Positions 47,290-60,916 are shown, numbered from the stretch's first letter. The stretch is 64,000 nucleotides of DNA from Pseudanabaena sp. ABRG5-3 (GCF_003967015.1 NZ_AP017560.1:3470048-3534047), one strand, 5' to 3'. Program-made: numbers and translations. Notes: a model not told the origin generated them from the sequence alone.

Positions 47290-49122
47290 CTAGCTTGAGA
47301 GCTTTCCTATTAATAAATAAGTAATCATCTTACCCTTACCTTTAATATCGATCTCTCGACGGGAATCAAATTGGTACTTGTCTTTTAACAGGTGATAGGT
47401 TACTTCGGTAACTTGGATACAACCAGCAACACCTTGGGACTCCATACGACTTGCCACATTAACCGTATCACCCCAAAGGTCGTAAATAAACTTCTTCGTA
47501 CCAATTACCCCAGCGATCGCCTGTCCAGTGTGAATACCAATCCGCAATGAAAAGGGACTACCATCAGTACGCTTAAACTGTTGGATGGATGCTTGCATTT
47601 CCAAGGCCATTTCCGCGATCGCCTCTGCATGATCCTTACTCGGTGTTGGCAATCCTCCAACTGCCATATAAGAATCACCAATAGTTTTAATTTTCTCTAA
47701 TTCATAAACATCAACTAGACGGTCAAACTCTGAAAATATATCATTCAAACAGTTGACCAAATCACTAGCAGAAATAGCCGCCGCATATTCCGTAAAATTG
47801 ACAATATCCGCAAATAAAACTGTTACTTCATCAAAGGCATCAGCAACAACTGCCCCAGAAATTTTACCATTGGTGAGACTATCTAGCATAGGATCTACCT
47901 CTAGTAAATTGTTAGAATAAGCCTCTACAACTTTACTCGCTAAAGCTTTGGATTGAGATAGTTTTAAGCGTTCTACAATCTCTTGAGGCAAAACATTTAA
48001 TAATAAACGTTCGGATTTCATCTGTTCAATTCGCAGCTTTTCTTCAGCTCGACGACGCTCTTGAGATTCCATTCCCAATGCTAATAAATCCGCTAAAGAA
48101 CTGGCAAAACTATGCTCCTCTGGTAGCCACAAACGTTCTACATCAGTATGTTCAAAAGCAATAATACCTGTCAATTCACCATTAACTTCAAAGGGCTTAA
48201 TCAATAAAGATACTGTGTTCGCAGAGTTGAAATAATCCAAGATTTCTTGTAAATATGCTTCCTCCTGTACATCCTCAACAGAAATACTAGTTTGTGATTG
48301 AAGTGCTGCAAAAAATTGGGGATAATCTTGAGCAGTCAAAAAATTTGCTTCTGTATGAGTGTTTGTACTTTTAATATATAAATCGAGGCAATGTAGAAGT
48401 GTTTTTGCTGTATCAAACAGCCAAATACTGACCCTTTCCACACTTAAAGCATGGCTTCCTGTATAGGTAATATTTTGAACAGCACCGATAAAATCCCCCT
48501 GATTAATTGATTTATCTTTGGTTAAACCTAGTAGAAAATCCTGTTGTTTCCGAAGTTGATCTTCACGGCGACTTAATAGAAAATTTATGCGTTGAAATGA
48601 GGCTTTTGATGCGTTTAGTTCATAGCTTGTTTCTTTTAAATTTAATGTTAAGTCTTGGTTGGACTGCTCTAGTTGCAAAAGAGAATTTGCTATCATTTCT
48701 ACCATCGTATTAAATGATGCTGTTAAAACTTGAATTTCGCGAGTTCCTTCTACTGATACCCTTGTATTGAGCTTACCTTGAGTAACTGCTTGAGAAGCTT
48801 CACTTAATTTCTCTAGAGAAGAGGAAATCGATCGCCAGATCATCATGCTCATCAAGATGGCGATCGCTAATATTGCAAAGTATAGCAAAATCACTATTTG
48901 GGTATAGTCCTGCATCGAACCTGTAAATTGAGATTCAGGAATTACCACTACCATTAGCCGATTATAAAAAATAAATATGCCAACTAATCCCATCGCTAGG
49001 ATTAGCTGAAACACAAATGGAACCACTAGTACAGTTTTCAGTGGAACATTTTTTAATAACCTAGCTAAATATGAGATTTTAAACATGATGCCTAAGTAAG
49101 TAATACCTTTGCTGCTAAGCAC
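47290..49122 (-). CDS. GAF-domain adenylate cyclase with HAMP domain (class III), paralogue 1
   Basis: A 610-residue membrane cyclase: two membrane helices (about 28-53 and 71-93) bracketing a short extracytoplasmic loop, HAMP (about 93-145), coiled coil, GAF (about 205-360), linker, and a class III catalytic domain (about 430-600). Metal ligands are D439 (FADIVNF) and D483 (IGDSYM); the adenine-specifying pair is K477 and D548 (YDLWGD), and N555/R559 (NVASRM) stabilise the transition state, so it is predicted to make cAMP. The GTG start at 49122 has GAAAGGA upstream and overlaps the preceding gene by 8 bases; ATG 49086 is an alternative. Tandem with a close paralogue. Confidence 0.9.
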   Translation of the reverse strand: MLSSKGITYLGIMFKISYLARLLKNVPLKTVLVVPFVFQLILAMGLVGIFIFYNRLMVVVIPESQFTGSMQDYTQIVILLYFAILAIAILMSMMIWRSISSSLEKLSEASQAVTQGKLNTRVSVEGTREIQVLTASFNTMVEMIANSLLQLEQSNQDLTLNLKETSYELNASKASFQRINFLLSRREDQLRKQQDFLLGLTKDKSINQGDFIGAVQNITYTGSHALSVERVSIWLFDTAKTLLHCLDLYIKSTNTHTEANFLTAQDYPQFFAALQSQTSISVEDVQEEAYLQEILDYFNSANTVSLLIKPFEVNGELTGIIAFEHTDVERLWLPEEHSFASSLADLLALGMESQERRRAEEKLRIEQMKSERLLLNVLPQEIVERLKLSQSKALASKVVEAYSNNLLEVDPMLDSLTNGKISGAVVADAFDEVTVLFADIVNFTEYAAAISASDLVNCLNDIFSEFDRLVDVYELEKIKTIGDSYMAVGGLPTPSKDHAEAIAEMALEMQASIQQFKRTDGSPFSLRIGIHTGQAIAGVIGTKKFIYDLWGDTVNVASRMESQGVAGCIQVTEVTYHLLKDKYQFDSRREIDIKGKGKMITYLLIGKLSS

Positions 49123-50578
49123 CTATGCGTCCTTTCAAGAGATAGGTCGTCATTTCTCCTTTGCCTTTAATATTAATGGCACTTCGTTGTTCAAAATAAT
49201 ATTTATCTTTTAAAAGTTGATAAGTCGCTTCAGTAACTTGAATACAGTCAGCAATACCATAGGACTCCATGCGACTAGCGACATTGACTGTATCTCCCCA
49301 TAGGTCATAAATGAATTTTTTTGTACCAATTACCCCAGCGATCGCCTGTCCTGTATGAATACCGATCCGTAATGAAAATTGACTACCATCAGAACGTTTA
49401 AATTTCTTGATCGAGGACTGCATTTGTAAAGCCATTTCGGCGATCGCTTCCGCATGATCATCACTGGGTATAGGCAATCCCCCCACTACCATATAGGAAT
49501 CACCCACAGTTTTGATCTTTTCGAGGTCGTATTGTTCAACGAAGTAATCAAACTCTGAGAAGATCTCATTCAATACATTCACTAATTCACTAGCAGATAT
49601 AGCCGCCGCATATTCCGTAAAATTGACAATATCCGCAAATAACACGGTAACTTCGTCAAAGGAATCTGCCACAATTGTCCCGCTAGTTTTTAGATGCACT
49701 TGCGTCTTAAATTGCAACGACTTCAAGCGTTCAGCGATTTCGGGTGGTAATACATTCAGCAAGAGACGCTCTGATTTTTTCTGTTCAACCCTTAGACTTT
49801 CTTCGACCCGTCGGCGTTCTTGCGCTTCCATTCCGAGTGCTAATAAATCTGACAAAGAATTGGCAAAGCTAATTTCTTCCTCTGTCCATAGATGCTCAAT
49901 CTCGGTATGCTCAAAGGCGAGGATACCAATAATTTCTCCACCGACTTCAAATCTAGAGACCAAAGTAGAAACAATTCCTAAAGGCAAGCAATAGGGTAAA
50001 AATAATTCTTGAAAAATAGGATCTTCTTGGATATCTTCGATAGCGATCGCCCGATCCTTGAGAATTGCCTCAAAAAAGCTAGGATACAGTTCTGCGCTTA
50101 AAACTTCAGACTCGGTATGCAGATTTAAGCTTTTTTGATAGAGATCAAGGCAATGTAAAACTGTCTTGTTTTTATTGAAGAGCCAAATACTAACCCGTTC
50201 GACATTAAGAGCAAAACTGCCCGTTCTTGTAATATTTTGGACAGCAATAATAAAGTCACCTTGGTTAATTGCTCGATCTTTTGTTAAGGCAAATAAAACA
50301 TTTTGCTGCTTTCTGAGTTGATTTTCGCGACGGTCTAGCAAAAAATTAGTGCGTTGTAGTGAAGATTTTAACGCTTCTAGCTCATTACTTTTTTGCTGGA
50401 CTAGTAATTCTAATTCCTGATTCGATTTTTTGAGGCGCTGTGAGATCAAAAATATTGATCGCCACCAAGCGATCGCTACTACTAATGCAATTAATGCGAT
50501 GGTGAATATTTCCCAGCTCAATTTGGTAGCGTAGTTAATAATCAGGGTTCTAGACTTGCAAAATACAAATACTGACAA
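49115..50578 (-). CDS. GAF-domain adenylate cyclase (class III), paralogue 2
   Basis: A 487-residue paralogue of the next gene, nearly identical in the cyclase core. It has one N-terminal membrane helix (about 22-40), a coiled coil, GAF (about 95-245) and the catalytic domain (about 305-485) with D316, K354, D360, D425, N432 and R436, all present; cAMP specificity is predicted. Unlike paralogue 1 it lacks the extracytoplasmic loop and HAMP domain. No ATG or GTG precedes the hydrophobic helix; the TTG at 50578 is the only start I can propose, and N-terminal truncation is possible. Overlaps paralogue 1 by 8 bases, so the two are co-translated. Confidence 0.85.
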   Translation of the reverse strand: MSVFVFCKSRTLIINYATKLSWEIFTIALIALVVAIAWWRSIFLISQRLKKSNQELELLVQQKSNELEALKSSLQRTNFLLDRRENQLRKQQNVLFALTKDRAINQGDFIIAVQNITRTGSFALNVERVSIWLFNKNKTVLHCLDLYQKSLNLHTESEVLSAELYPSFFEAILKDRAIAIEDIQEDPIFQELFLPYCLPLGIVSTLVSRFEVGGEIIGILAFEHTEIEHLWTEEEISFANSLSDLLALGMEAQERRRVEESLRVEQKKSERLLLNVLPPEIAERLKSLQFKTQVHLKTSGTIVADSFDEVTVLFADIVNFTEYAAAISASELVNVLNEIFSEFDYFVEQYDLEKIKTVGDSYMVVGGLPIPSDDHAEAIAEMALQMQSSIKKFKRSDGSQFSLRIGIHTGQAIAGVIGTKKFIYDLWGDTVNVASRMESYGIADCIQVTEATYQLLKDKYYFEQRSAINIKGKGEMTTYLLKGRIGA

Positions 50579-51080: not shown

Positions 51081-52706
51081 ATGAGTCAACTGTGGCAAGA
51101 GTTAGAGCGCGAAGTCGAAAGGCGGCGCACCTTTGCAATTATTTCCCACCCCGATGCGGGGAAAACCACCCTTACTGAAAAACTATTGCTGTACGGAGGT
51201 GCGATTCACCTTGCGGGGGCGGTCAAAGCTAGGGCAGCTCAGCGTCATGCCACATCGGACTGGATGGAACTAGAGAAACAACGCGGGATTTCGATTACCT
51301 CGACGGTGTTGCAATTTGACTATATGGGCTATTGCATTAATTTGCTCGATACCCCCGGTCACAAAGATTTTAGTGAAGATACCTATCGCACCCTCGCAGC
51401 GGCGGACAATGCCGTGATGCTAGTTGATGGGGCAAAGGGCTTAGAGCCACAAACTCGGAAATTGTTTGAAGTTTGTCGGATGCGATCGCTACCCATTTTT
51501 ACCTTCATCAATAAAATGGATCGTCCCACCCGTGAGCCATTGGAACTTTTGGATGAAATCGAAAAAGAGTTGGGGATCACTCCCTATGTGATGAATTGGG
51601 CGATCGGTACGGGCGATCAGTTCAAAGGTGTGTATGATCGCGCCACGAAGACAGTGCATTTATTTCAACGGAGCGCTCATGGACAACGCGAAGCAACCGT
51701 TGATATCTATCCCTATGATGATCCCCAAGCCATTAAATTTATTGGCAATAACCTCTATAATCAACTCCTCGAAGATTTAGAAGTCCTTGATTCCCTTGGC
51801 GCGGAATGGAATACGCAGGATTTGCATCGTGGTAAGCTCACCCCGATTTTCTTTGGTAGTGCCATGACCAACTTTGGTGTGGAACTATTCTTGAAATCTT
51901 TTCTAGAATTTGGCATCACTCCCACTGTTCACGATAGTTCAAGCGGTGAAGTCTCGCCCACTGACGAAGATTTCTCAGCCTTTGTTTTCAAACTGCAAGC
52001 AAATATGGACCCACGCCATCGCGATCGCATTGCCTTTGTGCGGGTTTGCTCTGGCAAGTTTGAGAAAGACATGAGTGTGACTCATTTACGCAGTGGTAAG
52101 AGCATTCGGCTGTCCCATGCCCAAAAGTTATTTGGACAGGATCGTGAGGCGATCGATGTTGCCTATGCAGGCGATGTCATTGGTTTAAATAACCCAGGCA
52201 TGTTTGCGATCGGTGACACGATTTACCTTGGGAAAAAGCGACAATATGCGGGGATTCCCTGCTTCTCGCCAGAACTATTCTGTACGCTCCGCAATCCCAA
52301 TCCTTCTAAGTTCAAGCAATTCCGTAAAGGGATTTCTGAACTACAGGAGGAAGGCGCAATTCAAATTATGTATTCCGTTGATGAATCAAAGCGCGATCCG
52401 ATTCTGGCGGCAGTTGGGCAGTTACAGTTTGAAGTTGCTCAGTACCGACTCCAAAGCGAATACAGCGTCGAAACAATTCTCGAATCGATGCCCTATTCCG
52501 TCGCTCGATGGGTTGAGGATGGTTGGGATGCGCTCGAAGCTGTCGGTAGACTGTTTAATACAATGGTGGTCAAAGATAGCTGGAACCGTCCTGTGTTGCT
52601 CTTTAAGAACCAATGGAACTTAAATCAAGTGGAAGCGGATCATCCTAAGTTAAGGCTCAAGGCGATCGCCCCAATTGCTGAGCTAACTACTGCGGATACG
52701 AAGTAA
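51081..52706 (+). CDS. prfC: Peptide chain release factor 3
   Basis: A 541-residue translational GTPase that recycles RF1/RF2 after termination. G1 is HPDAGKTT (23-30), G2 lies in [12 protein letters not shown]3 is DTPGHKDF and G4 is NKMDRP; the RF3-specific regions [21 protein letters not shown] and a GTPase-associated C-terminal domain follow. ATG start. The next 170 bases hold a MITE-like repeat and then an IS630 element. Confidence 0.96.
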
Positions 52707-52726
52707 GTACCATTCATTTCTACAAC

Positions 52727-52843
52727 CTTGTAGTGGATAGCCACATCTAAAGTAATACAATAGATTTTGGGTTAAATACTTACTGCATAAACACGCCAAG
52801 ATTTTCCTAAAGCACTATTTTAGCTGTATCTATCCACTACAAG
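52727..52843. repeat. MITE-like inverted-repeat element
   Basis: CTTGTAGTGGATAG (52727-52740) and its exact complement CTATCCACTACAAG (52830-52843) border an 89-base AT-rich core. The 117-bp size, perfect 14-bp ends and lack of coding sequence fit a miniature inverted-repeat element. The nearby IS630 ends are different, so it is not a derivative of that IS. Confidence 0.5.
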
Positions 52844-52947
52844 ATCGGAGATCGTAATCAAACAGTTTGGTGATAATGATACAGCCTATTGAGGGAAAGA
52901 GTAGTACAAGATAAGATAGGATAGCAGAACAAAAAAGAGAGTAAAAA

Positions 52948-53316
52948 ATGGCACCTTACTCACTAGATCTTAGGCAAAAGATCGTAGCAACCTACGAAGC
53001 AGGAAATACATCGATTCGTGAAGTAGCTAAGCAATTTCAAGTCGCGACAAAAACAGTGCAAACACTGCTGAATCAATACCGAGAGACAGGAGAACTAAAC
53101 CACAAACCATTAGGGAGTCAAATCAAAAGTCCGCTCGAAGCCCATCGAGAGAAAATCCTCAAAATTGCGACAGAGCATCCAGATTGGACACTATGGCAGT
53201 ACTGTGAGGAAGTAGCAGAACAAACAGGAGTATCAGTGACCACGGGCAGTATGTGCCGATTTTTCCAGAGGCATAACATCACGCTAAAAAAAAGACCTAT
53301 CGCCATGAAAAGGTAA
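52948..53316 (+). CDS. IS630 transposase, N-terminal frame
   Basis: A 122-residue HTH part of an IS630/Tc1-type transposase: YSLDLRQKIVATYEAGNTSIREVAKQF (helix-turn-helix, DNA binding) and a second HTH-like segment near GSMCRFFQRHNITLKKRP. The frame ends at TAA 53314-53316. Between residues 113 and 115 the DNA has eight A's (53286-53293); slipping back one base there joins this frame to the catalytic part, giving KTYRHEKVKSEAV. ATG start with AGAGAG upstream. Without frameshifting this product could act as an inhibitor. Confidence 0.85.
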   Translation: MAPYSLDLRQKIVATYEAGNTSIREVAKQFQVATKTVQTLLNQYRETGELNHKPLGSQIKSPLEAHREKILKIATEHPDWTLWQYCEEVAEQTGVSVTTGSMCRFFQRHNITLKKRPIAMKR

Positions 53317-53360
53317 AAAGTGAGGCAGTACAACAGCAAAGATGTGAATTTTGGGAAGCA

Positions 53361-53894
53361 TTGCAGGGGGTAAAAGCTGAAGATCTTATTTGTATTGATG
53401 AAACGGGAGTATGGCAGGGAATGGAACGCTCTGTGGCAAGAAGTGAGTGTGGCAAGAGAGTATTCAGTCATCGTCCCTTTTACAAAGGTCAGAAATACAC
53501 AGTCATTGGGGCTATTTCGGTCGATGGTATTGTTTGCCTGAAAAAGATTCAGGGTTCAATGAAAGGGGAAGATTTTCTCACCTTTATCCAAGATGACCTA
53601 GTACCTAAATTACGTCCTGAACATAGGATAATCATGGATAACCTCAACTGCCATAAAGTTGAGGGGGTCGCAAAAGCAATTACAGAGACAGGCGCTAAGA
53701 TTTTGTACTTACCCACCTATTCTCCTGATTTTAATCCAATTGAGATGATGTGGTCGGTTCTCAAATATTTTATTAGATTGCTTAGACCTCAGTCTCAAAA
53801 ACTACTTCAGCATTTAATCAACGTTTTCCCTTACTTGTTAGAAAAAGATTTCTTCAAAAATTGGTTTACTAAGTGTTGTTACTGTACTACTTAA
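53361..53894 (+). CDS. IS630 transposase, catalytic (DDE) frame
   Basis: The second reading frame of the transposase, in -1 relation to the first. The open frame extends back to the A8 run, so the start given (an ATG-free point at 53361) is only nominal. Catalytic acidic residues: D in CIDETGVWQ, D in IIMDNLNCHK and E in SPDFNPIEMMWSVLK, the DDE triad of the family. Its stop codon lies in the right terminal repeat. Active transposase is expected as the fused product. Confidence 0.85.
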   Translation: MQGVKAEDLICIDETGVWQGMERSVARSECGKRVFSHRPFYKGQKYTVIGAISVDGIVCLKKIQGSMKGEDFLTFIQDDLVPKLRPEHRIIMDNLNCHKVEGVAKAITETGAKILYLPTYSPDFNPIEMMWSVLKYFIRLLRPQSQKLLQHLINVFPYLLEKDFFKNWFTKCCYCTT

Positions 53895-53935
53895 TCCCTC
53901 AACGGACTGTATGTGGCAAACTTAGTTACTTCTTA

Positions 53936-55063
53936 CTAATGCAATATTCCAAGTCGTTTTAAAGCCTCTACAACTGCTGTGGCTCGTGTATTTACACCCA
54001 ATTTGTGATAGATATTCTCCAGATGCTTTCTGATTGTTGCCACACCTACATGTAAAGTCTTAGCAATATCTGGATTTTCTTTGCCTTGGGCAACCCAATA
54101 CAATACTTCAGCCTCGCGTTTACTTAAGCCCAATAATTCTAAATCTTCGATGGATAATTTTGGTTGTTGTTGTTCTTCTAGTAGAAGTAAATATTGATCT
54201 TGAGCAAGGTCATAAAGAAAACGTACATTAAGCTGTTTTCCATCTTTCTCTATTATCAAAGGTACTCGGAGCTTTGATAATGTTCCTTCTTTAGAAAACA
54301 ACGACTTCTGATAGCTGACCCATCGCTGCAAGTGTTCTGGTAAAAACTTTCCTAGGTATTTGAATGAAAAATACTGCCATAATAACTGTTCAGCTTTTGG
54401 TGTCATTAACTGAACATACCCATCCTTTGATATTGCTATTCCCCCAAACCTATTTAAAGAATGCTGGAGTTGTTGATGCTCCTTTTCCTTGCGAGATAGA
54501 TTATGAGCTGTTTGCTGCGCCCGAATTAAGTGTGGCTGTAGGCAATTAAGTATTATGCGATCGCGTTCAGTAAATGTTCTCTGACTTCGACATAACTGAA
54601 TTCCTTCAATCCTTATAGTCTTTGCAAATTGGTCTTCGTTAATACTAAATGCTGTGTCAAAAGTTTGGGGTAACGCAAGTAGCATTGTATCTTCTATATC
54701 CATAAACCGTAGAAAGTTTTGATAAATCACTTCTGATTTATGAAGCTCAGCCTCACTCAAGAAATCAGACAGCTTGCAAGCACTGAAGTCTGATTTTTCT
54801 ATATGTTGAGAAACAAATGGATGCTCACAAAAATGCTGTTTTATATGTACTTCTGCATTAGGAACATTTGGCGGCTCTCCAGCCATTATATGCACTTCAA
54901 AATTTGAATAATTTGAAGATGTATATAACGGTATTTCCGATGGAATAAGTTTTGAAATTTCTTCTAGAACGTAGGTAGGAAAGTTTCTCAGGTTGTCAGG
55001 TATATACAAATCATGCAAAAAAGCCAAAACATTTTGATAGTCGCTATTTGAAAGTCTTGTCAT
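53936..55063 (-). CDS. LuxR-type transcriptional regulator
   Basis: A 375-residue protein (taking ATG 55063, MTRLSNSDYQNVLAFLHDLY, which suits this family better than the 33-codon longer frame) with a long N-terminal sensory region, a PAS/GAF-like middle and a C-terminal LuxR HTH: LGLSKREAEVLYWVAQGKEN then ATIRKHLENIYHKLGVNTRATAV. No receiver domain, so a ligand rather than a kinase may control it. It is divergent from the exported-protein genes and the obvious candidate to regulate them; this is inference from position. Confidence 0.85.
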   Translation of the reverse strand: MTRLSNSDYQNVLAFLHDLYIPDNLRNFPTYVLEEISKLIPSEIPLYTSSNYSNFEVHIMAGEPPNVPNAEVHIKQHFCEHPFVSQHIEKSDFSACKLSDFLSEAELHKSEVIYQNFLRFMDIEDTMLLALPQTFDTAFSINEDQFAKTIRIEGIQLCRSQRTFTERDRIILNCLQPHLIRAQQTAHNLSRKEKEHQQLQHSLNRFGGIAISKDGYVQLMTPKAEQLLWQYFSFKYLGKFLPEHLQRWVSYQKSLFSKEGTLSKLRVPLIIEKDGKQLNVRFLYDLAQDQYLLLLEEQQQPKLSIEDLELLGLSKREAEVLYWVAQGKENPDIAKTLHVGVATIRKHLENIYHKLGVNTRATAVVEALKRLGILH

Positions 55064-55375
55064 TTTAATTATATCTATATAGGCAATGTGAGACTGAAAC
55101 AAGATCACACATGCATTTAAAAGCATAGCAATCGTTACAAATTTCTTTAAATTAACAAGCAATATTGCTTAGGCTTAACAAAACAAGTCGTCAAATGACC
55201 CATTTACGCTCAGTTATTAAGTAGCTATTTTCAAATATGTAGTCAAGGTTTGTCAAGGTGATATGCAATACCACAAATGCAATCAAATTTATAAGGCAAT
55301 ACTCAATTAGCAATTCAGTACTGAAATGATAGTCATTCAATAGATTTAGCAATAAATGGATGGATGTATTTACTT
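55064..55375. other. Divergent intergenic region
   Basis: About 310 AT-rich bases separating the LuxR regulator and the lipoprotein pseudogene; both promoters must be here. No repeat or hairpin is prominent. Confidence 0.45.
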
Positions 55376-55777
55376 ATGATTAGAAAAAACATTTTGCTGT
55401 TACTTGTTTGATTCGGCTTGATAAGTTCAACAATAGGATGTAAAGCAGATAGAAGTCTCTCATCTACATCTTCTCCAACGCCTGACCCTCAAAGTTCAAG
55501 TGCCTTAATAGGACACTGGCGTAACACTGAGATCGAGTTTCAGGAGCCAGTTGATAGCCATTTAGTTTTGGATGCTAACGGTATTGTAGAAATATGGTAT
55601 GTGCGGGCTTCAAGTCAATCGCAAACGACAAAAGGTACATGGAGAGATGAAGGTGACAATATTGTTTTTCAGTTAGAGGGAGATACAATATCAAATCCAT
55701 TTACTTTCTATAAAGGTCAGCTCGTTTTTCCAAATACTCCGAACCAACGGAGATTTTGGGAGGAAATGTCTAATTAA
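55376..55777 (+). pseudogene. Lipoprotein gene with an in-frame TGA in the signal peptide
   Basis: Translating from ATG 55376 gives MIRKNILLLLV, then TGA (55409-55411), then FGLISSTIGC in the same frame, with a lipobox STIGC. The intact paralogue at 58288-58842 aligns over the whole length (MIKKRLLILLSFASSVSLTIGC), with F at the TGA position. The remaining 119-codon frame starts at TTG 55418 and has no signal peptide. The mature domain (GHWRNTEIEF ... NQRRFWEEM) is about 90 residues, beta-rich and lipocalin-like in pattern. It is either a recent nonsense mutation, or a sequencing error; internal reinitiation would give a cytosolic protein. Confidence 0.75.
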
Positions 55778-55829
55778 GCTATCAAGCAACAGTTTCATTT
55801 TACATCAAAGTAATACCAAGGAGAATTAA

Positions 55830-56909
55830 ATGAAAAAACTACTACTCACTACAACGTTGACTTGTTTGGCATTATCTAGTGGATCTGTTTTCGCACAAGA
55901 GGATTCCAAACAAGAAGTTGAAATGTCAATTATTAACTATAAAGAACGCGAACGCATAGCTCCGCCACAAATTCGTAAAAAGCTTGAACAGTTTCGCCGT
56001 GAAATCTCTCAGGAAAGATTGTCGTATCAAGTCGGTTATACAAGCATTGGGGATAACTCGATTCCTCCTGCTGTCAAACGCCCTTCGGAACGTACCGATG
56101 AAAGCATGAAAAAACAAAACCAAGAAGCTCAAAAAGTTATTCTTCAAGAGAAAATCCCAACGATTGAAGAATTGTTGTTAAGAATTCAGACTAGTACAAT
56201 ACCATCAAGTAATACCTCACAAACTTTATCTATCAAGCAAAGCCCTTGTGCTTCACGTCGTCAATTCAATTACAATTCCTTCCTACCCAGCATTCGTGAT
56301 CAAGGCAGTTGCGGCAGTTGTTGGGCGTTCGCAAGTGGCGGCATGGTTGATATGAACTACCGCATTCGACACCAGCGCAGTGCTAATGTTGCGGAACAGG
56401 AATTAATTGATTGTGCAGGCGGATTATTAAATTCCACGATTGATGGTTGTGCGGGCTTTTATGTAGAGTCTGTGATGTTGCATCTACAATTAGATGGTGT
56501 AGCTTCAGAATCTCGCTATCCATATCAAGCAAGAGACACAGGACGTTGTCGAAATCCGAATTATTCCTACAAAATTTCGACATGGGGTTGGGCTGGGTTC
56601 GGTTACGCAAATGTTAAGCAAATCAAAGATGCATTGTGCCGTTACGGTCCTGTTGCGACGACCTTGGAAGCTACCGATAAATTTCAATTATACACTGGAG
56701 GAGTTTTTCAAGAAAAAACTCGAAGGAGTTATGGTTTGATTCCTTCAATTAATCATGCAGTTGTGATAGTTGGATGGGATGACAACAAAGGTGCATGGCT
56801 TATTCGCAATTCTTGGGGACGCGGCTGGGGCGAAAATGGTTATGCTTGGGTGAAGTATGACCATAATGGAATTGGTTGGGATACAGTGTGGGCGGTTACT
56901 AAGAGATGA
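55830..56909 (+). CDS. Exported papain-family (C1) cysteine protease
   Basis: A 359-residue secreted protease with a signal peptide (1-22, cleavage near VFAQE), a ~110-residue charged propeptide and a C1A-type catalytic domain. Oxyanion Q158 and nucleophile C164 are in RDQGSCGSCWAFA, the histidine is H309 (INHAVVIVGWDD) and the asparagine is N327 (IRNSWGRGWGENGY); additional cysteines (C161, C195, C207, C240, C270) suggest disulfides. Papain-type enzymes are uncommon among bacteria. The propeptide shows no ERFNIN motif that I can see. It lies 50 bases after the lipoprotein pseudogene on the same strand. Confidence 0.9.
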   Translation: MKKLLLTTTLTCLALSSGSVFAQEDSKQEVEMSIINYKERERIAPPQIRKKLEQFRREISQERLSYQVGYTSIGDNSIPPAVKRPSERTDESMKKQNQEAQKVILQEKIPTIEELLLRIQTSTIPSSNTSQTLSIKQSPCASRRQFNYNSFLPSIRDQGSCGSCWAFASGGMVDMNYRIRHQRSANVAEQELIDCAGGLLNSTIDGCAGFYVESVMLHLQLDGVASESRYPYQARDTGRCRNPNYSYKISTWGWAGFGYANVKQIKDALCRYGPVATTLEATDKFQLYTGGVFQEKTRRSYGLIPSINHAVVIVGWDDNKGAWLIRNSWGRGWGENGYAWVKYDHNGIGWDTVWAVTKR

Positions 56910-56957
56910 ATTAGGGTTTCTCTACCATTACAATTCATGTAGTTGAGATATTTGTCA

Positions 56958-58151
56958 ATGATTGATCTATACAAAAAAAATGGATTTTGGATATCGCTCT
57001 GTATTAATACTGTAATTACCTTTGTATTGCCATGCTATTCAACATTAGCAGTTGATACTCCAATGTCAGGCGGTACTGGAGGAAACTCATTTACTTTGAA
57101 GTGTAATCCTAATCAAGTAGCTGTTGGTATTAGTGGGCGCTCAAGTAGTTATGTTGATAAGCTTCGAGTTATTTGTATGCATCCTTCGGATGTAAGAGTA
57201 AACAATACAAGTCCAACTCAAGAGAGTTCTAATTCAGTTGGTGGTACTGGTGGCAATCAGTTTACAAGACGCTGTGAAGCTGGCAGTGTAATTACTGGTA
57301 TATCGGGACGCGCTGGATGGTTTATAGATAGTTTGAAAATATACTGTTCTCCTTTTAATAGAAATACATTAATGGCTGAATCAGGTCTTAGAGAACTTGC
57401 TCTTATTGGTAGTAGTTCAGGACTGAGTAATTTTGGGAGATTTAATTGTCCCAATAATCTCCCTGGAGTTGGATTCAGGGGGCGTGCTTCTTGGTATATT
57501 GATGCTATTGCTTTAACATGTCAGATTCCTTCGCTTGCTCCAGGATCGTTATCTGCTAATAATTTACCTCGCGATATTACTCAGAGAAACTATCCAAATG
57601 TAATACGATTTAGCTGGACAGATAGATCACTGAACGAGACCAACTTTGTTGTAAAAATTACTAATCAAGAGACTGGGTTCGTATCTACTAACAATGTAGC
57701 GGCAGTTAGTAGTACAGGAAATCGCGTTACTCTAGATCTTCAATTACCTACTTTACCTCAAGCAACCAGATATACATTTATTGTTTGTGCAACAGTTAGT
57801 GACATTTCACTATGTAGTGATCAGTATCCATACTACAGCACTGGAAGTTTTGAAACCCCTGCTTCTCCTTTTGCTACTACATCTTCTCCGCCTACAAATA
57901 TTTCTTGGAGTAGAATTGGGGCTGGCACAGCTCGCGTATTTTACAATCATTTGGGTGGAGCGGACTTTTTTCGTTTCTATCTGACAAGTCCTGACACATC
58001 AAGCATTCTTGCTGCGACAGTTTCTGGAACTGCACGGCAAGCAGATATTGCACCACTTCTTGCGACTGTAGCTTATAGGATTAAAGTCTGTGCGGTTAGA
58101 GGAATTATAGAATTTTGTGCAAGCCCGATAACCATCCAATTTCCCTTTTGA
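56958..58151 (+). CDS. Exported protein with triplicated GG/Cys module and two Ig/FN3-like domains
   Basis: A 397-residue exported protein; signal peptide about 1-31. Residues 38-73, 95-130 and 151-188 are three copies of a ~36-residue module: GGTGGNxFxxxC, six residues, VxGIxGR, then IDxLxxxC (third copy lacks the GGTGG). Two beta-sandwich, FN3-like domains follow (about 203-300 and 305-397), each with a Cys pair. I cannot assign the module to a known family; jacalin-like or VMO-I-like folds share the glycine-rich beta character and could be considered. It lacks catalytic motifs, so a binding or adhesive role is plausible. ATG 56958 is preferred to an upstream TTG. Confidence 0.7.
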   Translation: MIDLYKKNGFWISLCINTVITFVLPCYSTLAVDTPMSGGTGGNSFTLKCNPNQVAVGISGRSSSYVDKLRVICMHPSDVRVNNTSPTQESSNSVGGTGGNQFTRRCEAGSVITGISGRAGWFIDSLKIYCSPFNRNTLMAESGLRELALIGSSSGLSNFGRFNCPNNLPGVGFRGRASWYIDAIALTCQIPSLAPGSLSANNLPRDITQRNYPNVIRFSWTDRSLNETNFVVKITNQETGFVSTNNVAAVSSTGNRVTLDLQLPTLPQATRYTFIVCATVSDISLCSDQYPYYSTGSFETPASPFATTSSPPTNISWSRIGAGTARVFYNHLGGADFFRFYLTSPDTSSILAATVSGTARQADIAPLLATVAYRIKVCAVRGIIEFCASPITIQFPF

Positions 58152-58287
58152 CATAGAAACCAGCTAGTCAATCTGACACAAAATCTCTAATAGGAACATT
58201 CTCATTCAATAGACTTTCGTCAAATTCAAGATAGTTGCCATAATTTTTGCACAATAAATTTTGCACAATAAATAATGGAGGCATACA

Positions 58288-58842
58288 GTGATAAAAAAAA
58301 GATTACTAATTTTACTTTCTTTCGCTAGTTCAGTAAGTTTAACTATAGGATGTAAACAAGATGTAGCTTTGGAAAAAGACTTAAAATCTCCACCTCCATC
58401 TTCGACAGCATCTCCATCCTCGACTGTATCTCCATCTTCATTAGTTTCTCCATTTCGCTCATCTTCAGTAGCTTCTCCATCTTCAACATCATATTTATCT
58501 AGTAAAAATGAAAAAGTTTCTTCGCCGTCACCAAAAGCAGAAACAATCAATGAAAATCCTCGCTTTCTTGTAGGTCACTGGCGTGAAACCAGCGTTAATT
58601 ATGATGTCTCTAAAGATGTACATTTAGTTTTAGCTGCTAATGGAACTGCGGCAAGATGGAGTGCAACAGTTGCTGGTCGATCTCCTAAGGAGGTTGGCAC
58701 TTGGAAAGTGAAAGGAAAAAATCTTATCTTAGAATTAGAAGGATATGAGAAGCTATCTCGCCCGTTTACTATACACGAAGGGGATCTTGTTTTCCCTAAC
58801 ATAAGCAACAAGCGTCGTTACTGGGAAAAAATACGCAATTAA
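58288..58842 (+). CDS. Lipoprotein with Ser/Pro linker, intact paralogue
   Basis: A 184-residue lipoprotein. GTG start (58288) with a strong GGAGG at 58277-58281. Signal peptide ends with lipobox SLTIGC22. A low-complexity Ser/Pro/Thr linker (residues about 33-85, repeated SPSS units) holds the globular domain away from the membrane. The C-terminal ~90 residues (LVGHWRETSVNY ... NKRRYWEKIRN) match the domain of the pseudogene at 55.4 kb. The GHWR opening and RRYWE end suggest a small beta-barrel, but I know no function. Substrate of Lgt. Confidence 0.8.
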   Translation: MIKKRLLILLSFASSVSLTIGCKQDVALEKDLKSPPPSSTASPSSTVSPSSLVSPFRSSSVASPSSTSYLSSKNEKVSSPSPKAETINENPRFLVGHWRETSVNYDVSKDVHLVLAANGTAARWSATVAGRSPKEVGTWKVKGKNLILELEGYEKLSRPFTIHEGDLVFPNISNKRRYWEKIRN

Positions 58843-59020
58843 TTTTGCTTTCCCCTTAGTTTAGAGGAAAATCATCCCGATTTGAATCTTAATCGCTTAT
58901 GCTATCTCTTCTATCAAAACTAGCCAATATCAATAACAATCAAGCCTTAAAGTTAAATTTTTTAGAACTAATACGCTTATTCTCGGAAATGCAATTCAAT
59001 AGTTAACAAGGTTGTCAGAA

Positions 59021-60112
59021 ATGTTTTCAAGAAATTATTTGCAAAAATATCAGTTCAGCTTTTTTACCACAAGCTTACTTTTATTTGCAACGCCAACACC
59101 AGTTTTAGCCAAAATCGATACTTTTACTATTACTAATTTTAGATCTGGAGTTTGCAGACATGTTGAGTTTAACTCAAATCACTTCGATTGGGATACGCGC
59201 AGTCGTATTTCGATTGCTTCAGGTGAAACTATTACTGTCACTTTGTATGGACATGGAGCGGACTTTGCTCAAGATGCTATGGGCTACAACATTTATGAGT
59301 CTATAACGGGCAGAGGAACGACGACAGACTACAATGCTCCAATTTTTTTTGGTAGTAAATTAGCTAAGGGGTATGTCCATATAGACGTTAGAGCTGATCC
59401 ATCTCTTGGACTCGGTAACCGTAAAATAATAGTTAAATATCCGACTGGTCAAGAGAGTTTTACCCTTAGGGTCGTGGCTAACTGTGATGATTTAAGAAAT
59501 GCTCGCTATCGTAATCTTACAAACGCATCTCCATCTCCCCGACCTCCATCTCCCCGACCTCCATCTCCCCGACCTCCATCTCCCCCTAGTGGAGGATCTC
59601 CACGACAACCAGACTTGCAACCAGTTCTTATCTCCGCTCCATCTCCTATTACACGCTCGTTTAATGTAATATCCACACCAAGGGGAAATATGAACCAGGT
59701 TAGCAGTTTTTTCTGTAGTAATCTGCTAGTAAATACTCCAACTAATGTTGCTGTGCCAGATTTAACTTGGGGAGTGGTGGGTGTAAATCCTGAATTAGCA
59801 AATACTAGATTTCATGTGCAGTTGATTGATGCTCAAAGCAATAGCATTCTTGATACCTTAACTCTACCGCAGGGGTTCCCAGCAAATACTCCATTGGTTC
59901 AACGCAAAAATTATCCAGGTAGGGCTACATCACTTCGAGTCGTCTTAAATCCTAGATTTCAGTCTGGAGGAAGCGTACAAACGCCCATAGGTTGCTTTAC
60001 TGAACCTAATAGTACTCAGTCTTTAGATCCCAATGTGTTTTTGCTCAAAGTTGATCCTGATAACTTGATTAACGAAGGTGATAGAGAAAATAACAATGAA
60101 TTAACATTTTGA
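59021..60112 (+). CDS. Exported protein with SPRPP repeats
   Basis: A 363-residue exported protein. Signal peptide (about 1-30, cleavage after VLAK), a beta-rich N-terminal domain (about 33-170), a hinge of three SPRPP pentapeptides (PSPRPPSPRPPSPRPPSP), and a second beta-rich domain of about 170 residues, ending LINEGDRENNNELTF, similar to the acidic end of CARDB-type domains. It has two Cys in each half, consistent with disulfide pairs. No enzyme motif. I take ATG 59021 (MFSRNYL) over TTG 59012. Last gene of the exported group. Confidence 0.75.
   Translation: MFSRNYLQKYQFSFFTTSLLLFATPTPVLAKIDTFTITNFRSGVCRHVEFNSNHFDWDTRSRISIASGETITVTLYGHGADFAQDAMGYNIYESITGRGTTTDYNAPIFFGSKLAKGYVHIDVRADPSLGLGNRKIIVKYPTGQESFTLRVVANCDDLRNARYRNLTNASPSPRPPSPRPPSPRPPSPPSGGSPRQPDLQPVLISAPSPITRSFNVISTPRGNMNQVSSFFCSNLLVNTPTNVAVPDLTWGVVGVNPELANTRFHVQLIDAQSNSILDTLTLPQGFPANTPLVQRKNYPGRATSLRVVLNPRFQSGGSVQTPIGCFTEPNSTQSLDPNVFLLKVDPDNLINEGDRENNNELTF
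59526..59586 (+). repeat. Tandem 15-bp repeat coding for SPRPP
   Basis: Three complete and one partial copy of CCATCTCCCCGACCT. Such tandem repeats change length readily by slippage, altering the hinge without loss of frame. Confidence 0.8.
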
Positions 60113-60259
60113 CTTTTTTCTCAATTTTTCTATTGCATTAATTTAGATGAAATAGTTTCATTTAGTCTTAACAAGTTTTTAATAAGTTAACTAATGCACT
60201 ATTCTTAGATCTGTTTGTTTACTACGAGTTCATAAATTTATTGATTATTACTGAGACCT
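60113..60259. other. Intergenic, nothing recognised
   Basis: 147 AT-rich bases between the exported group and the Coq4-like gene, marking the right edge of the group. Confidence 0.4.
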
Positions 60260-60916
60260 ATGACTGATTCATTGGATGCTAAACAACAAAGAGAAGAAGC
60301 TCTGTTATCGGCATTTCTAGAAATGGTGCGATCGCCTGATGGTGATTTTGGTGTAATTGATCGCCTTGCGGCGGCGAGTGCAGATCTAGAAAGCTTACAG
60401 TTAATGATTCAGTATTTATCTAACCATCCTCAAGGGAAACTTGCTTTTGAGACCTATCCCCGTGTTGGTGAAGTTGATTTAGAACAACTTGCCCTTTTGC
60501 CAAGCTATACCCTTGGTTATGCCTATGCTCAGCATATGCGCCAAAACAATCTTAAGCCATTGCAAATTAAGCCTAGTACCAATGACTATGAGTTTTTAGG
60601 CGCACATATTACCGAAACCCATGATATTTGGCATGTGATTACGGGATTTGAAACCAATATTGTTGGTGAGATTCAGTTAGAAGCTTTCTATGTGTCCCAA
60701 ATGCGTTTCAGTCGATTCTGGTTAGCTTTAATCACCAAAAATCTCTTGAAAACTGTGGTCTATGATATTGAACGTTCTACGGAGTATATGGATGCAATTT
60801 CTCAGGGATGGCTTTTGGCAAAACATGCTAAACCTCTATTTGGGATAGATTGGAAACTTCTGTGGGAGAATCCTCTAACTGAGCTTCGCGATTCATTGAA
60901 TATCAAGATTTTATAA
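60260..60916 (+). CDS. Coq4-family protein
   Basis: A 218-residue Coq4-like protein. The conserved zinc-site motif HDxxHx(n)E is present as HDIWH (121-125) with E137 (IVGEIQL). In ubiquinone biosynthesis Coq4 acts in C1 decarboxylation-hydroxylation and organises the complex; cyanobacteria make plastoquinone, so its substrate here may be a quinone precursor or something else. No membrane segment except a weakly hydrophobic helix (FWLALITKNLL). Standalone, ATG start. Confidence 0.85.
   Translation: MTDSLDAKQQREEALLSAFLEMVRSPDGDFGVIDRLAAASADLESLQLMIQYLSNHPQGKLAFETYPRVGEVDLEQLALLPSYTLGYAYAQHMRQNNLKPLQIKPSTNDYEFLGAHITETHDIWHVITGFETNIVGEIQLEAFYVSQMRFSRFWLALITKNLLKTVVYDIERSTEYMDAISQGWLLAKHAKPLFGIDWKLLWENPLTELRDSLNIKIL

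Follow-up and report, generated by a model that had tools for sequence, protein, structure and literature searches.

A lineage-specific island of exported proteins beside a solo LuxR-type regulator gene in Pseudanabaena sp. ABRG5-3

What brings a papain-type protease, a lectin-like protein, small lipoproteins and an adhesion-like protein together beside one regulator gene? The question is raised by a cassette in a stretch of 64,000 nucleotides from Pseudanabaena sp. ABRG5-3 (GCF_003967015.1, NZ_AP017560.1:3470048-3534047), hereafter called the window, in which a LuxR-type regulator gene (luxR) is divergent from five reading frames, B to F. A first-pass annotation, made from the sequence alone, had proposed that five exported products might form a surface-bound or released processing machine. 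Our analysis identifies the cassette as a genomic island that is specific to its lineage and inserted between prfC and coq4, and we hold with moderate confidence that it is LuxR-controlled and carries exported cargo. New with respect to the annotation are this insertion, the identification of D as a lectin, the break in B, and the finding that lectin and lipoprotein genes recur next to one LuxR clade. The annotation was supported in seeing, next to a LuxR gene, a set of exported products that act at surfaces, and no described system of this make-up was found, as had been stated. The fixed machine fared worse: nothing supported a complex, the five-gene combination was unconserved in the searched genomes, and one lipoprotein gene is broken. 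Because the combination is unconserved and C, D and F lack orthologous neighbourhoods, the findings are better described by an island whose cargo changes beside its regulator than by a machine.

An insertion between prfC and coq4

Gene order in the window runs from prfC (51081-52706) through a repeat resembling a miniature inverted-repeat transposable element (MITE), an IS630 element, luxR on the minus strand and B to F on the plus strand to coq4, which begins at 60260. In five congeners (G021, G008, G020, G009 and G012) prfC and coq4 are direct neighbours with gaps of about 15-132 bp, and a sixth (G002) has one different gene between them with MITE copies on its flanks; therefore, the cassette is an insertion. 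Behind coq4, sdr, gnat and hemF succeed in the same order in G021 and G002. The left edge of the insertion is formed by the MITE-like inverted repeat (52719-52851; 45-nt arms, 76% complementary), to which the MITEs flanking the different insertion in G002 are related, and the right edge by a partial MITE end (60190-60231) just upstream of coq4. The IS630-family insertion sequence (IS; 52879-53912, plus strand) encodes a two-frame transposase (open reading frames 52948-53316 and 53361-53894, with profile matches to PF01710 and PF13358) between inverted ends (52879-52908 and 53883-53912). This element and the luxR gene had been correctly recognized beside the cassette by the first-pass annotation, and a close copy of the element is present elsewhere in G002. 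The slot gene of G002 (L044:5461-6847) is a histone-deacetylase-like reading frame, judged by eye, and the site gives the impression of a hotspot for insertions.

No match for D was found in the 58 relatives searched and no convincing match for E and F among the congeners searched, and the N-terminal part of LuxR had no relative elsewhere in the genus when 390 cyanobacterial genomes were searched. A plasmid or phage origin was rejected, since D, E and F had no match in the plasmid search and D none in the phage search; similarly, no viral contigs matched D or the B/E lipoprotein. The low GC content at third codon positions (0.21-0.33 in the cassette) was dropped as proof of foreign origin, because some other genes of the window also lie at 0.27-0.33. 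A defence system was rejected as well, as the PADLOC matches were to generic DNA-binding parts of LuxR only.

The regulator as the conserved link

The luxR gene (53936-55063, minus strand) encodes a solo LuxR-type regulator of 375 amino acids. Its C-terminal GerE DNA-binding domain is the only significant profile match, and the N-terminal part of about 310 amino acids belongs to a cyanobacterial family. A quorum-type LuxR receptor was rejected, because no autoinducer domain was matched and no NCBIfam autoinducer-regulator cut-off was reached. Homologues were searched with the N-terminal part alone, which avoided the common DNA-binding domain, and relatives were found in 30 of the 390 cyanobacterial genomes, the window's own counted. 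The closest are those of G144 (55%), G051 (55-59%, aligned over residues 59-375 and encoded on contig C67) and G087 (46%), which form one clade with the window's protein (support 100/99).

The neighbours of these genes are informative in two cases; the contig of G087 ends 334 bp short of the informative side. In G144, the divergent neighbour of luxR is a jacalin lectin (PF01419, 1.2e-10), the sole jacalin found in this genome. Jacalin matches occurred in three of 145 genomes, a lower bound because the search missed the window's own D, and the other jacalin genes (in G083 and G145) do not adjoin a luxR of this family. In G051, a gene for an exported GDSL/SGNH protein is divergent from the luxR start and is followed by a homologue of the lipoproteins (52-54% to B/E), the only one in the 390 cyanobacterial genomes beyond the window's two, even by profile search. 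As a rough estimate, a rare gene would by chance lie no more than two genes away from a given luxR in fewer than 1 in 1000 instances per case. The neighbourhood comparison that had been proposed as a check thus returned luxR with a jacalin gene in one genome, and luxR with a lipoprotein and an exported hydrolase in another, while the full set was found nowhere else searched. The outcome that the annotation would have taken as its refutation, no second genome with so much as a pair of these genes, did not occur. We conclude that the regulator is the conserved link, and that the stable core of the island is a solo LuxR whose clade adjoins exported-cargo genes.

It is with this recurrence that the best surviving alternative has to be compared, namely that unrelated genes without joint function were gathered in the prfC-coq4 hotspot by IS and MITE activity. 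Such a chance pile-up would be in keeping with a MITE-edged slot that holds a different gene in G002, with the IS630 inside it, with a unique gene set that includes a pseudogene candidate (B), and with the location of C homologues elsewhere in other genomes. However, it does not account well for the same LuxR clade recurring with jacalin in G144 and with the lipoprotein in G051, both rare families, nor for the common strand and the export of every intact product. We regard a chance gathering as somewhat unlikely, but as an explanation to be taken seriously.

The wider luxR family was also found beside candidate cargo. Of four full-length SpvB/TcB genes found in 20 searched genomes, three adjoin family members (in G223, G189 and G200), with one gene lying between the two in G189; the stretches with these LuxR-linked genes are L088:674-8221, L094:11932-17501 and L095:9905-17001. 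RTX-repeat proteins are the neighbours in G167 and G118, a DUF4347 protein in G252 and an FG-GAP/hydrolase protein in G226. In G285, a tail-sheath gene is located near and divergent from the LuxR homologue (L100:3900-6095), which may represent a contractile-injection locus governed by this regulator family. In a published survey, GerE/LuxR genes adjoin 25.8% of the loci for extracellular contractile injection systems (eCIS; PMC8213781). The window's luxR resembles the LuxR/GerE regulators by eCIS and TcB genes in being a family member beside exported or toxin-like cargo (PMC8213781). In contrast to those loci, its cargo consists of protease, lectin and lipoprotein and includes no injection apparatus, and profile scans found no sheath, tube or TcB genes between luxR and coq4.

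The exported products

The first-pass assignment of C (55830-56909, plus strand) to the papain-type proteases was borne out. The gene encodes a Sec-exported member of family C1A with a signal peptide and a pro-region of about 115 residues; PF00112 is matched over the catalytic domain at 3.3e-46 (158.6 bits against a cut-off of 20.7), and the catalytic residues Q158, C164, H309 and N327 are complete and align with those of the cathepsin-type structure 3qt4. With the bacterial papain family it shares the fold signature, the catalytic Gln/Cys/His/Asn set and the signal peptide, and proteolytic activity is predicted. It differs in its pro-region, which matches no known pro-domain, the I29 type included, and the nearest relative in the genus and family search is 29-32% identical. 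A tie of C to the same neighbours elsewhere was rejected, as its relatives in G013, G029 and G053 have differing contexts.

D (56943-58151, plus strand; likely start ATG 56958) encodes an exported lectin-like protein. The triplicated modules with GG and Cys motifs described earlier are present, but have to be reinterpreted as jacalin-lectin motifs. They span residues 41-82, 98-140 and 155-198, with a period of about 58 residues. PF01419 is matched at 7e-10 (39.9 bits against a cut-off of 22) over partial stretches, a phmmer search of the PDB matches jacalin lectins, and a profile of the three modules retrieves the lectin 1zgr (2.8e-14) as well as 4mq0 and, weakly, griffithsin. Both sugar-binding loops are complete in module 2 (GGTGG and GWFID); in modules 1 and 3, Ser replaces Gly in GxxxD, and module 3 also lacks the GG loop, so that these two modules are nearly complete or degenerate. 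One Cys pair lies in each module (54/78, 111/135 and 169/193), as expected for an exported protein, and two further pairs lie in the following part of about 200 residues, which appears FN3-like from its general look and a beta-strand-rich model rather than from a profile match. D thus has the GG-x-GG and GxxxD-type loops of jacalin-related lectins (PF01419) and of three-fold beta-prism lectins such as griffithsin, but differs from both by its export, its three spaced modules with a Cys pair each, and the putative FN3-like domains behind them. The beta-prism was not confirmed by modelling: the single-sequence AlphaFold model of D has a mean predicted local distance difference test score (pLDDT) of 42.9 and no usable fold.

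The two lipoprotein genes are indeed paralogous (43% identity), but one of them is not intact. B (55376-55777, plus strand) is a lipocalin-like lipoprotein gene with a TGA at 55409-55411, within the signal peptide. From the ATG at 55376 it translates as MIRKNILLLLV, stop, FGLISSTIGC and onwards; behind the TGA the frame is open again, intact and aligned to E across the whole domain. The TGA is either a recent nonsense mutation, which would make B a pseudogene, or a sequencing error, and an alternative TTG start at 55418 would yield a protein without a signal peptide. All of B to F are on the plus strand as described, but four intact exported genes, not five, lie beyond luxR. E (58288-58842, plus strand) is an intact lipoprotein with the lipobox SLTIGC (by inspection), a linker rich in Ser and Pro, and a C-terminal lipocalin-like domain of about 95 amino acids. 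The Pfam profile Lipocalin_4 matches E weakly (22.6 bits against a cut-off of 22.4, E=0.0002) and gives 16.8 bits for B. Structure prediction, another check that had been suggested, succeeded better here than for D: the domain core of E, and this part alone, is modelled with confidence (pLDDT 70-85), and its fold neighbours are NlpE, TP0435 and YedD-type lipoproteins, with probabilities near 1 but weak E-values of 0.02-0.7. While these profile and fold matches, weak as they are, liken E to Lipocalin_4-like and NlpE- or YedD-type small lipoproteins, B and E represent a family of their own with domains of about 95 amino acids and no member of known function.

This family occurs in two of the 390 cyanobacterial genomes (the window's and G051), in Nitrospira and in Verrucomicrobia. 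A Nitrospira metagenome-assembled genome (MAG; L105:9824-10309) encodes an exported relative of the domain with 54% identity, as close as that of G051, a member of another cyanobacterial family, and a second Nitrospira relative (L111:10001-10123) matches over a shorter length (41 residues, 66%). Judged by their sequence likeness, the Nitrospira relatives suggest transfer between phyla.

Staphostatins are cytoplasmic beta-barrel inhibitors encoded beside the papain-like staphopains. By analogy, B and E might be cognate inhibitors or chaperones of protease C, with the lectin and F as separate cargo. The window resembles staphopain/staphostatin pairs, as known in general, in placing a papain-fold protease beside a small lipocalin-like protein: B precedes C by 52 bp, weak profile and fold matches mark the B/E domain as a small barrel of the lipocalin kind, and one homologue, in a Verrucomicrobia MAG (L107), has an exported papain-fold protease (C70/C39-like) as its divergent neighbour. 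However, the linkage to a protease was seen in these two loci only, and the homologues in G051, Nitrospira (L105) and other Verrucomicrobia loci (L108-L110) have no papain-type neighbour. Moreover, an extracytoplasmic lipoprotein of the envelope is unlike the cytoplasmic staphostatins, inhibition is hypothetical, and B itself is broken. An inhibitor pair is, in our opinion, unlikely.

F (59012-60112, plus strand; likely start ATG 59021) is an exported protein that consists of an N-terminal domain of unknown type, a linker of the SPRPP-type repeats already described, and a C-terminal domain whose end has a weak, sub-threshold match to CARDB. The whole set as a conserved operon was rejected, since D had no match in 58 genomes and F had weak and partial matches only in the 390 cyanobacterial genomes.

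The compact spacing ascribed to the entire cassette applies to B-C-D (gaps of 52 and 33 bp), but not to E and F, which are preceded by 136 and 169 bp, respectively. Because compact spacing is confined to B-C-D, we consider three transcription units more probable than a single one. A weak candidate for a shared regulatory site is the 9-mer ATTCAATAG on the plus strand upstream of B (55335-55343), E (58204-58212) and F (58994-59002), which is found just once more in the window. Any 9-mer common to the three upstream regions arose in 11 of 5000 first-order Markov simulations. Around the motif, B and E have 12 bases in common and F nine.

Outside the insertion, tandem paralogous genes with GAF and adenylate/guanylate cyclase domains lie beside prfC (47290-50578), and at least three copies are present in several congeners.

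A proposed LuxR-controlled island of exported cargo

As we envisage a LuxR-controlled island, the regulator would sense a cell-state signal via its N-terminal domain and activate the divergent units B-C-D, E and F, whose products would be exported through Sec. D, with its jacalin modules and FN3-like part, and the CARDB-like F could attach to glycans or surfaces, where C, a secreted papain-type zymogen, might cleave proteins. E, together with its now broken paralogue B, would stay attached to the envelope, where it could serve as a binding protein or a guard, and the benefit could lie in the interaction with competitors, grazers or the matrix.

Several observations weigh against this picture. 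The full gene combination was found once, and the neighbourhoods of C, D and F are not conserved. Since B is interrupted, the island is, at least in part, dispensable or in decay. In G051, luxR is split over contigs C67 and C541, and the adjacency is proved by the 47-amino-acid fragment on C541 alone. Several distant LuxR relatives have neighbours without a family match, and cargo enrichment beside the wider luxR family is an impression; a firmer claim can be made for the clade of four and for the SpvB neighbours, but not beyond. The shared motif ATTCAATAG is short, may partly stem from the B/E duplication and should be taken as a lead only. Finally, gene order supports the linkage as such; LuxR control of B to F, targeting, substrate, an inhibitory or guard role and benefit are inferred.

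A housekeeping set that remodels the sheath or matrix and is not directed against other organisms would also suit the lectin, adhesion-like and protease domains and the lack of toxin domains in profile scans of the cassette genes, but appears quite improbable given that the set is absent from the congeners searched and that the regulator family elsewhere adjoins TcB/SpvB and contractile-tail genes.

A further-reaching version of the LuxR-controlled island, which we consider a long shot, is that the LuxR clade is a fixed control unit of cyanobacterial exported-cargo islands, which would swap lectins, proteases, hydrolases and a lipocalin-like guard lipoprotein. The island would then represent lectin-guided proteolysis combined with an inhibitor anchored in the envelope, and would act in antagonism by contact or secretion, without an injection machine. 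The exported weapons and adhesins of cyanobacteria are poorly charted, and if it is true that this LuxR clade marks cargo islands, such sets could be found by neighbourhood rather than by sequence. In addition, the protease and lipoprotein pair offers a simple direct test of whether a lipocalin-like lipoprotein may guard against a secreted papain-type enzyme.

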